Both the position numbers and the translations under genes were made by a program. The notes beneath the pieces were generated by a model. That model saw nothing but the letters and a program-made list of their open reading frames with translations, had not been told where the DNA came from and made no database searches. Shown piece by piece: positions 1 to 53,059 of a stretch of DNA of 64,000 bases. This stretch comes from Geoalkalibacter halelectricus (lineage in GTDB: Bacteria > Desulfobacterota > Desulfuromonadia > Desulfuromonadales > Geoalkalibacteraceae). The stretch is from contig NZ_CP092109.1 in assembly GCF_025263685.1 (NCBI RefSeq), positions 2,977,001 through 3,041,000 of the forward strand. The letters run 5' to 3'. The stretch's first letter is position 1, and each line of letters starts with the position of its first letter.

Positions 1-528
1 CAGGGCCCAATAGATTTTTTCAATATCGCGCGCGGCCATGGCCTGGGTCAGCGGCTTATGAGCCTGAGGGTGAATCGAGAATACCATAATCCCCGAGGTG
101 TTGCGATCCAGACGTTGCACCATACCCAACTCTGGACGACACTGGGGGCGAAAAGGATCATGCAAATAGCGCAACAGAGCCTCATAAAGGGTGCCCTTGT
201 AACGTGCGTGGGTGGGCTGGGTGTCGATTCCAGCAGGCTTATCGATCGCCAGAAGGTAGCGATCCTGAAAGACTATATGGCGCTCCGTCACGGAGAACGG
301 TTCCAGGGGCAAGCCGTCAAGATGAACCTCGATCCCCTGCCCTTCCCGGACCTGCAAGGAGCACCGACAGGTGCGCCGTCCGTCAACGTGAACTCCCCCC
401 AGATCGATGATGCGGCGGGAATAAGTGCGCGAAAAGCCACTCAGCCGCGCGGCCAAAACTTGATCGAGGCGTTGGCCGGCGTCTTGTTCCCCTACCCGGA
501 GCCGATGAATTTCACCCTTACCCCTCAT
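1..528 (-). CDS. RluA-family 23S rRNA/tRNA pseudouridine synthase (3' truncated)
   Basis: It should isomerise specific uridines in structured RNA to pseudouridine. The first 176 codons are present and the gene runs off the left edge. An S4-type RNA-binding domain covers roughly residues 15-65, and the family motif RLDRNTSG lies at about residues 139-146 with the catalytic Asp at about 141. The segment 'DKPAGIDTQP' before it is also typical. The ATG at 528 follows a GGGAGAGG ribosome binding site. RluA, RluC and RluD cannot be separated because the C-terminal half is missing. It is the last gene on the minus strand before the 6S RNA region. Confidence 0.88.
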   Translation of the reverse strand, partial: MRGKGEIHRLRVGEQDAGQRLDQVLAARLSGFSRTYSRRIIDLGGVHVDGRRTCRCSLQVREGQGIEVHLDGLPLEPFSVTERHIVFQDRYLLAIDKPAGIDTQPTHARYKGTLYEALLRYLHDPFRPQCRPELGMVQRLDRNTSGIMVFSIHPQAHKPLTQAMAARDIEKIYWAL

Positions 529-632: not shown

Positions 633-660
633 TTGACAGTCACCGCACCTGTGCTAGAAA
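633..660 (+). promoter_or_regulatory. Candidate sigma-70 promoter for 6S RNA
   Basis: TTGACA at 633-638 is followed after 16 bases by TAGAAA at 655-660, preceded by TGC (extended -10), giving a start near 667. An alternative -10, TAAGAT at 671-676, would start transcription near 683, closer to the folded 5' end, but has no good -35. The surrounding sequence is AT-rich. Confidence 0.55.
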
Positions 661-685
661 TGATATCAAATAAGATCTTTCAAAA

Positions 686-867
686 TTCTCTGGGATGCAC
701 GACACGGACCTTATCGGGGTGACCAACATTTATGGGTCAAAGCATCCGGCCAGTGATCATGGTGAGCCTGCCCATCCTTGAATGGGACGCCTAAAGTGAT
801 CCTCCGGTGAATTCCGCAAGGTTTCAAAAGGTCACGGCGACGAGCAAACGATCGGCATTCCGGAGGC
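686..867 (+). ncRNA. ssrS: 6S RNA
   Basis: 6S RNA mimics an open promoter and sequesters the sigma-70 RNA polymerase holoenzyme. The ends form a closing stem: CTCTGGGATGC (688-698) pairs with GCATTCCGGAG (855-865) through 11 positions including two G-U pairs. The apical arm at 761-795 reads GGTGAGCCTGC, then a CCCAT/ATGGG hairpin (771-775 with 782-786), then GCCTAAA. This matches the order in E. coli 6S RNA (GGTGAGCATGC, hairpin, GCCTTAAA). The 3' strand TTTCAAAAGGTCACGGC (822-838) also resembles the E. coli counterpart. Length, about 180 nt, is normal. The gene often found after ssrS in other proteobacteria (ygfA) is absent here. Confidence 0.88.
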
Positions 868-871
868 GAAT

Positions 872-1059
872 AAGCAATTGGCAGGTCGCAGGGCAGCGGC
901 ATAATCCGTTAGGACTCATCCGCTTGAAGCAGCGACTTCCCATGGCAGGAGCGTTCCTGAATCTTCCGGCGTCAGGTTCACAGGAAGTTGGTCCTGGAAG
1001 TGACATAACGCACCTGACCGCGGATGAAGAAAGTGCCCTGACGTATCTGCCAATTGCTT
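872..1059 (+). ncRNA. Unidentified highly structured element downstream of 6S RNA
   Basis: The ends of this 188-nt stretch are perfect 13-bp complements, AAGCAATTGGCAG (872-884) and CTGCCAATTGCTT (1047-1059). Nested inside are CAGGGCA/TGCCCTG (889-895 with 1034-1040) and TCATCCGC/GCGGATGA (916-923 with 1020-1027). Two apical arms follow: CAGGA/TCCTG (946-950 with 955-959), and GTCAGGT/ACCTGAC (971-977 with 1012-1018) enclosing TCAC/GTGA and CAGGA/TCCTG. No credible reading frame covers it. It lies between 6S RNA and a terminator, so a plus-strand transcript is likely, but the fold reads on either strand. It could be a novel RNA, a diverged second 6S copy (I found no 6S signature) or a palindromic repeat. 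Confidence 0.55.
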
Positions 1060-1068
1060 TCCCATGCA

Positions 1069-1102
1069 TAAAGCCCCGCAATCCATGGATCGCGGGGCTT
1101 TA
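1069..1102 (+). terminator. Bidirectional intrinsic terminator
   Basis: TAAAGCCCCGC (1069-1079) pairs perfectly with GCGGGGCTTTA (1092-1102) around a 12-nt loop. It can end the 6S-region transcript on the plus strand and the ihfB transcript on the minus strand. Confidence 0.8.
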
Positions 1103-1136
1103 TGTGTTCTTGGCTGCAGTGTGTCGCAAAAATTCG

Positions 1137-1427
1137 TCAACAGCAAGTTCCGTTGTTGACCCGCTCACGCAATTCCTTACCGGTCTTGAAGAACGGCGTC
1201 TTCTTGGGCGGAATTTTCACCAAATCGCCGCTTTTGGGATTGCGTGCCTCGCGAGCATCGCGCTCACGGATGGTAAACGAGCCAAAGCCGCGAATCTCAA
1301 CGCGATCCCCTCCAATGAGCGCCTGGCTGATGCTGTCGAAAATGGTGTTGACGACCAATTCAGCCTCTTTTTTACTCAAGGCCACGTTTTCGACCGCCAA
1401 CTGCTCAATCAATTCACTTTTCGTCAT
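1137..1427 (-). CDS. ihfB: Integration host factor subunit beta
   Basis: A nucleoid protein of the HU/IHF family that forms a heterodimer with IhfA and bends DNA sharply at specific sites; it commonly assists sigma-54 promoters and recombination. The protein has 96 residues, the usual IHF-beta length. It shows the RGFGSF motif at residues 46-51 and ARNPKSG at 61-67, the beta-arm tip carrying the intercalating proline (Pro64). The start is preceded by AGGAG. It is followed within 20 bp upstream by sppA, so it probably belongs to the rpsA-sppA-ihfB transcript; in E. coli ihfB also sits next to rpsA. Confidence 0.95.
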   Translation of the reverse strand: MTKSELIEQLAVENVALSKKEAELVVNTIFDSISQALIGGDRVEIRGFGSFTIRERDAREARNPKSGDLVKIPPKKTPFFKTGKELRERVNNGTCC

Positions 1428-1445: not shown

Positions 1446-2393
1446 TCAATTCACCTGCCACAAATATTGCAGGCCATCGGCATTCTGCCCCTGCAGACTC
1501 TGGCGCACGCGGGTCACGCTTTCCTGAATCAGATACTCAAAGAACCTGGGTCTTTCGGGCGCGGGATAGACGGTGCGGGGTTCGCCTTTGATGCCCGCCA
1601 TCTCGCCGGCCACAAGGATCGCATCGCGCAAATTCCCCAGATCGTCCACAAGCCCCAGGGACAGGGCCTGACGTCCGCTGAAAATGCGTCCGTCGGCAAG
1701 TCCCACCACCTCGGCATAGTCCATGGAGCGCCCCTGGGCCACCGCGGATACGAACTGGTCGTGAACATCATTGATGAGTTCTTGAAGGATGTGTTCTTCC
1801 TCCGCGCTCATGGGGCGCACCGGTGAGCCGATATCCTTGTGCTCCCCACTTTTAATCACCCGGTTCTTGAGCCCTATTTTGTCAAGAAGCTCCTGAAAAT
1901 TGGTAAATTCCATGATCACGCCGATGCTGCCGGTTATCGTACCAGGATTGGCGAGAATGCGGCTGGCGGGCGCGGCGATGTAGTAGCCGCCTGAGGCCGC
2001 CACGGAGCCCATGGATGCAACCACCGGCTTGACGTCGGCCAGACGGCGGACCTCCTCGAAAATTTCCTGCGAGGGACCAACCCCGCCGCCCGGCGAATCG
2101 ATCCGCAGCACCACGGCCTTGATGGAGGGATCTTCGCGAAACTTGACAATGGTCTCGATTGTCTTATCCGAAGAAAGAATGACTCCGGTAACAGGAATCA
2201 CCCCGACCCGATCACCAATGGGAAACGGCGCGCTACGCCCCGTCATTGATCCAATGGCGAGGATGATCAGAAAAAACACAAGAAAAATGGCGCCAAAGGT
2301 TGCAAGCGCCATCAGGAAGGGTCGTTTATTCATGAGCAGCTTTCGGACCGAAACGGAACCCCGACCCTGAGGGCCGGGGTTCCGGGTTGTCAT
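1446..2393 (-). CDS. sppA: Signal peptide peptidase SppA (short form)
   Basis: A membrane-anchored serine protease of the S49 family that degrades signal peptides left in the membrane. The 315-residue protein has one N-terminal membrane segment (about residues 24-48). The nucleophile is Ser134 in 'VAASGGYY' and the general base is Lys186 in 'SGEHKD', spaced 52 residues apart as in the Bacillus short-form enzyme. 'DSPGGGV' at 99-105 contributes to the active-site groove. Neither possible start, the ATG at 2393 (11 bp after the rpsA stop) nor the internal ATG at 2333, has a strong Shine-Dalgarno sequence, so the first 20 residues are uncertain. Confidence 0.93.
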   Translation of the reverse strand: MTTRNPGPQGRGSVSVRKLLMNKRPFLMALATFGAIFLVFFLIILAIGSMTGRSAPFPIGDRVGVIPVTGVILSSDKTIETIVKFREDPSIKAVVLRIDSPGGGVGPSQEIFEEVRRLADVKPVVASMGSVAASGGYYIAAPASRILANPGTITGSIGVIMEFTNFQELLDKIGLKNRVIKSGEHKDIGSPVRPMSAEEEHILQELINDVHDQFVSAVAQGRSMDYAEVVGLADGRIFSGRQALSLGLVDDLGNLRDAILVAGEMAGIKGEPRTVYPAPERPRFFEYLIQESVTRVRQSLQGQNADGLQYLWQVN

Positions 2394-52892: not shown

Positions 52893-53059
52893 TAGGAGGC
52901 TGTCGGACTATCCGGGCCGAAGCGAAAATTTGGATGTTTCAGTCCGGATTTTGGCTCCTTTGAGAGCGCATAGCCGTAGCTACGTGCCGAAAAGGAGCCG
53001 GAATCCGGGCCAAACAGCCGGATTTGCAGCCGGCTCATGGATGGTCCGACAGCCTCCTA
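52893..53059. repeat. 167-bp MITE-like palindromic element ending in the metK stop codon
   Basis: Terminal inverted repeats of 21 bp (52893-52913 and 53039-53059, beginning TAGGAGGCTGTCGGAC) differ at one base. A second inverted repeat lies inside: the arm around 52943-52960, containing CCGGATTTTGGCTCCTTT, pairs with 52990-53007. It encodes no protein. The right end supplies the TAG stop of metK. It looks like a non-autonomous mobile element or dispersed intergenic repeat. Confidence 0.75.

Follow-up and report, generated by a model that had tools for sequence, protein, structure and literature searches.

What is the folded segment that separates a 6S RNA gene from its terminator in Geoalkalibacter halelectricus? 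The window analyzed here is a stretch of 64,000 nucleotides (contig NZ_CP092109.1, positions 2,977,001 to 3,041,000 of the forward strand). An initial annotation, made from the sequence alone, had pointed to a set of nested stems without a credible reading frame between the 6S RNA and a strong terminator, and had left three explanations side by side: a co-transcribed partner RNA, a diverged tandem 6S copy, or a palindromic repeat. 6S RNA is known to restrain RNA polymerase, and there is no settled explanation for the several 6S RNAs that many bacteria maintain. The locus has the following parts, in window coordinates (A5 is the alignment of the four Geoalkalibacter sequences).

1–528, minus strand: gene for a pseudouridine synthase of the RluA family, truncated at the window edge; a syntenic marker
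633–660, plus strand: likely promoter of the 6S-2/partner unit (TTGACA at 633–638, extended −10 TGcTAGAAA at about 652–660)
684–870, plus strand: 6S RNA of the second-paralogue type (6S-2), in the 6S-2 clade (RF00013, 45.1 bits, E 7.9e-8)
871–1060, plus strand: partner RNA element (fold z −5.5; 12 compensatory pairs in four genomes; homologues behind 6S-2 elsewhere)
873–886, plus strand: 5′ arm of the closing stem, conserved core GCAATTGGC (A5 columns 3–16)
896–909, plus strand: small 5′ hairpin, GCGGC...CCGT, with invariant pairs (A5 columns 26–39)
916–1027, plus strand: central stem, 916–923 paired with 1020–1027, with three double changes
926–939 and 946–1016, plus strand: inner hairpin and long apical stem, both inside the central stem
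1045–1058, plus strand: 3′ arm of the closing stem, core GCCAATTGC (A5 columns 175–188)
1064–1104, plus strand: shared intrinsic terminator, a GC-rich inverted repeat called by script and conserved in the four genus members; bidirectional use is possible
1137–1427, minus strand: HU-type DNA-binding protein gene, convergent neighbour and 6S-2 syntenic marker (tblastn across 6S-2 loci)
1446–2393, minus strand: SppA-type signal peptide peptidase gene, 6S-2 syntenic marker

A single conserved promoter precedes 6S-2, the element, and the terminator, which were found to adjoin each other gaplessly. The RF00013 score of the 6S-2 gene lies just below the gathering score of 46.4 bits. The promoter was spotted by eye and was not found by a consensus scan; its TTGACA and the TGnTA-AA-like bases are common to all four genus members. 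The terminator calls throughout this study come from a simple script. A promoter-like site within the element (878–905) is not kept in relatives and was discarded. Promoter, spacing, and terminator together suggest that 6S-2 and the element very probably come from one transcript. Elsewhere in the window, a T-box leader (RF00230, 29395–29623, minus strand, 121 bits) is the only Rfam match above the gathering score.

Is the fold more than a chance product of base composition? The minimum free energy of nucleotides 868–1062 is −87 kcal/mol, while 200 dinucleotide shuffles gave −60.2 ± 4.9 kcal/mol (z = −5.5) and none of them was as low. The nested stems are where the initial annotation had placed them. 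In all four Geoalkalibacter genomes, the element lies immediately after the third 6S gene and before the conserved terminator, with fold z values from −4.7 to −7.4. The four sequences, folded singly, share the same architecture of a closing stem, a small 5′ hairpin, a central stem, a second hairpin, and a long apical stem. The A5 consensus has 58 pairs, and in 12 of them both bases are substituted in one or more sequences; compensatory changes, whose absence would have spoken against a conserved fold, were therefore present with only four sequences. Paired columns of the plus strand contain 23 G-U pairs and 2 A-C mismatches in the genus. Since the opposite strand would reverse this ratio, the plus strand is the RNA. 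A protein-coding reading was rejected, as no reading frame is kept: the copy of one relative (G002) is interrupted by stops in each of the six frames, and the length varies by 1 nt within the genus. The earlier statement on the lack of a reading frame was borne out. The element is very likely a real, conserved, co-transcribed RNA.

Is the element tied to a particular 6S gene? The G. halelectricus genome has three 6S genes (at 364932, 1679030, and 2977684, the last being that of the window). The first two are directly followed by a terminator, and only the third carries the element. A tree of 168 6S sequences places all 31 that bear a partner in one clade of 80 with a support of 1.0, and the partner was found at none of the 88 primary 6S genes that make up the rest. 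Thus, the partner is tied to one paralogue. About half of the 6S-2 clade, or more, lacks it, so that it is dispensable; its absence from more than half of the clade means that gain or loss has occurred repeatedly. An RluA-family, HU, or SppA gene lies beside 26 of the 31 partner loci and 31 of the 49 partnerless 6S-2 loci, many of which are on short stretches, but beside none of the 88 primary 6S loci. Judging from the tree and the flanking genes, the element accompanies 6S-2 only, and does so at an orthologous locus.

Some further features of the 6S genes were observed. Most genomes of the order have two or three 6S genes, in two old clades of the tree, and two genomes (G009 and G029) may hold four. 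Five further 6S-like loci (L102, L103, L104, L105, and L106) match RF00013 in the apical part only (about model positions 61–129). They may represent a third, fast-changing type of 6S, which has no partner.

How far does the element extend beyond the genus? A covariance model from the four Geoalkalibacter copies only (R1) was run on 136 genomes of the order and gave no further copy, save one that emerged with filters off (24.7 bits), directly abutting its 6S, in a genome of the same family as that of the window (G005). Taken by itself, R1 pointed to an element restricted to the genus, but a survey of the 3′ flanks of 6S genes revealed that this was a limitation of R1. The distance between a 6S and the terminator that follows it, measured at about 160 loci of the order, is bimodal. 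It is mostly 0–50 nt, and in some twenty loci it is 120–207 nt with folded segments inside; one more locus of this long class (G012) was spotted by eye. Most of the long-class segments have a closing stem with CAAUUGGC (AATTGGC). In most partner segments, a GAAA strand and a GAGUA strand are opposed in an internal loop, and both are present in all 13 sequences of alignment A7.

A second model (R2), built from six long-class segments, carries no place information. R2 led to new copies in G126, G127, G129, G130, G133, G049, and G106 and to weaker ones in G033 and G024. Each copy lies 0–2 nt behind a 6S, and a terminator-like hairpin follows wherever the locus is long enough to read. The copies of G049, G024, and G033 come from families outside the training set; the 6S of G033 was identified by eye, as Rfam does not list it at E 0.01. 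A third model (R3), built from 13 members, has 29 pairs, 19 of them with double changes. Its covariation was reached by none of 500 shuffles and is also far above that of slid controls. R3 recovered the same member set as R2, and no copy was found outside the order when 277 genomes from the class and 395 from the phylum were searched. In G035 and on contig C30 of G106, weak R3 matches have no 6S ahead and look like coding sequence; they were taken as chance. When species genomes and viral contigs were scanned with a DNA pattern, a single clear member emerged (L048), from Geoalkalibacter sp. CSMAG_1185 on a contig of G002; the remaining loci belong to unrelated taxa, and their number is about that expected by chance.

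In total, I found 31 partner loci in about ten families (f1, f6, f8, f9, f11, f13, f14, f16, f19, and f20 by the labels of the tool), where the segments of f13, f19, and genus g37 are joined to the others by place and fold only. The median fold z is −4.3 over the 31 partner segments, six of which are no better than −1.7, and +0.27 over 40 control flanks. The covariance-model search of Desulfuromonadales that had been proposed at the outset yielded homologues flush behind 6S in other families. With the shared promoter and terminator, the lack of a gap, and the association with 6S in about ten families, the co-transcribed partner RNA was the one of the three early explanations that found support.

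Does the copy of the window belong to this family? The AATTGGC core occupies the same closing-stem position in this copy and in the wider family, and the copy abuts the 3′ end of a 6S-2 gene and precedes a terminator. R1 matches the partners of G005 and G018 at their exact places with E about 4e-5 (3.5e-5 for G018), and R3 matches those of G001 (21 bits, E 2.6e-4), G005, and G002 likewise; covariance-model E-values are rough, and those of R1 and R3 call for caution, as palindromic closing stems yield antisense or terminator matches of similar score. R1 also matches the elements of G015, G049, G106, and G126 at their exact places. The R3 score of the window's copy is weak (8.0 bits), and the GAAA/GAGUA internal loop is absent from all five f1 copies, including this one. 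The flanking RluA, HU, or SppA genes, shared with most other partner loci, are a further line of evidence for kinship. The f1 copies are probably a divergent branch of the partner family.

What may such an RNA do? The best explanation, to which I would assign a probability of roughly 0.6, is that the element represents an uncatalogued RNA family that is co-transcribed with 6S-2 and probably processed to a protein-binding RNA. I infer the mechanism as follows. A precursor of about 420 nt would be cut between the two RNAs or left whole. The element would then be a stable RNA whose internal loop serves as a protein-binding site. Made in a fixed ratio to 6S-2, it would act in trans alongside 6S-2, under conditions where 6S-2 restrains RNA polymerase. 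In known RNAs, the bulged-G motif (sarcin-ricin loop, loop E) offers proteins or RNA a rigid platform to dock on. The GAAA/GAGUA loop of most members fits this motif: members of the loop type have GAA facing AGUA within a helix, between paired flanks. The likeness is a sequence-based match to a motif rather than to a family, and it is not seen in the Geoalkalibacter copies. There may be an even chance that the 6S-2 of Desulfuromonadales is a two-RNA system, in which a single transcript would supply, at a constant ratio, a 6S and an unrelated conserved protein-binding RNA, the latter giving 6S-2 a job that the primary 6S lacks.

An unrelated structured RNA that shares its transcript with a second 6S is not known to me. 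Bacillus subtilis also has more than one 6S (6S-1 and 6S-2), as do all Geoalkalibacter genomes studied here, but both RNAs of B. subtilis are 6S. A search of the available literature and Rfam gave nothing like the 6S-2 partner RNA, which may nevertheless have been described earlier. The 6S-2 locus is a 6S transcription unit extended by a further RNA, and the element by itself is a new RNA family. The second 6S paralogue thereby differs from the first in a concrete way, having a linked uncatalogued RNA with an invariant core of its own. The finding suggests that 6S loci elsewhere be inspected for a structured RNA in the interval from the 3′ end of 6S to the terminator. Ms1 and CoRP of actinobacteria are structured non-6S RNAs linked to RNA polymerase (PMC4191392, PMC11077062). 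They were found via polymerase binding and have no tie to a 6S gene, whereas the element is known from sequence alone. Since non-6S polymerase-binding RNAs exist (PMC4191392, PMC11077062), a polymerase-linked role for the element would have a parallel.

The element might instead have no function of its own. Its closing stem would recruit an RNase or block exonucleases, and thereby define the 3′ end of 6S-2 or prolong its life. The constant position in cis, abutting 6S-2, agrees with such a maturation or stability module, as does a strong closing stem enclosing an interior that varies more across families than the stem itself. On the other hand, a blocking stem would need neither an invariant internal loop nor inner helices that covary, and the primary 6S and half of the 6S-2 genes manage with a plain terminator. 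I consider this reading possible but rather unlikely, while a protein-binding, trans-acting RNA, set against a maturation or stability module, is as yet an evenly balanced proposition.

The two RNAs may also stay joined as one molecule of about 400 nt, whose second domain would recruit a further factor to the 6S-bound polymerase. There is no spacer between 6S-2 and the element, no internal promoter is conserved, and a polymerase-binding RNA of greater length has a precedent in CoRP of corynebacteria, which is about 500 nt long (PMC11077062). But each half has a complete closing stem of its own, which suits separate folding, and a bipartite RNA seems improbable.

That the element is a diverged tandem copy of 6S which still binds RNA polymerase, as the initial annotation had allowed, is very unlikely. 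The element resembles 6S (SsrS, RF00013) in length (about 188 nt) and in its long closing stem, adjoins it in the same orientation, and in G045 and two other genomes shows some alignment signal to its own 6S. However, RF00013 does not match 871–1060 even at E 10, nor does it match the partner segments of relatives, and no family of Rfam 15 matches 871–1060 either at the gathering score or at E 10, which agrees with the earlier failure to see a 6S signature or a known RNA family in it. The alignment of 6S with its own element is no better than with shuffles (median z 0.3), compared with a z of 4.4 for 6S against another 6S of the same genome. The branching and the conserved core differ as well: the large open central bubble of 6S is not seen in the consensus fold, and at its position a hairpin occupies the 5′ strand of the element, opposite a 3′ strand that is merely short. 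An antisense action on 6S was also rejected, with a median z of −0.2 for the duplex energies over the 31 loci.

The idea that a palindromic repeat or MITE entered the space between 6S and the terminator can be dismissed: the element is nearly palindromic and the genome has a palindrome dispersed over about 40 sites, including one behind another 6S gene, but the element itself occurs once in the 4.13-Mb single-contig genome, not in the many scattered copies expected of a repeat, shows compensatory changes, keeps the same orthologous locus in many families, and lies inside the transcription unit rather than after its terminator.

Separately, the partner of G045 (L197, family f19) gave an alignment z of 5.1 with its own 6S, unlike nearly all others, and may differ in origin. 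As for the dispersed palindrome, a weak element-like match behind a second 6S gene of this genome (865–1024 of L110) turned out to be one of its copies. It is a 165-bp near-palindrome (GGAGACTGTCGGACTATCC...GGATAGTCCGACAGCCTCC), whose roughly 40 copies in this genome are 95–98% identical, for example at L110:862–1026 (genome 365161–365325) and at about 52894–53058 of the window. One copy directly follows the terminator of a different 6S gene and is lacking in G001–G003. The near-palindrome looks like a recently active MITE.
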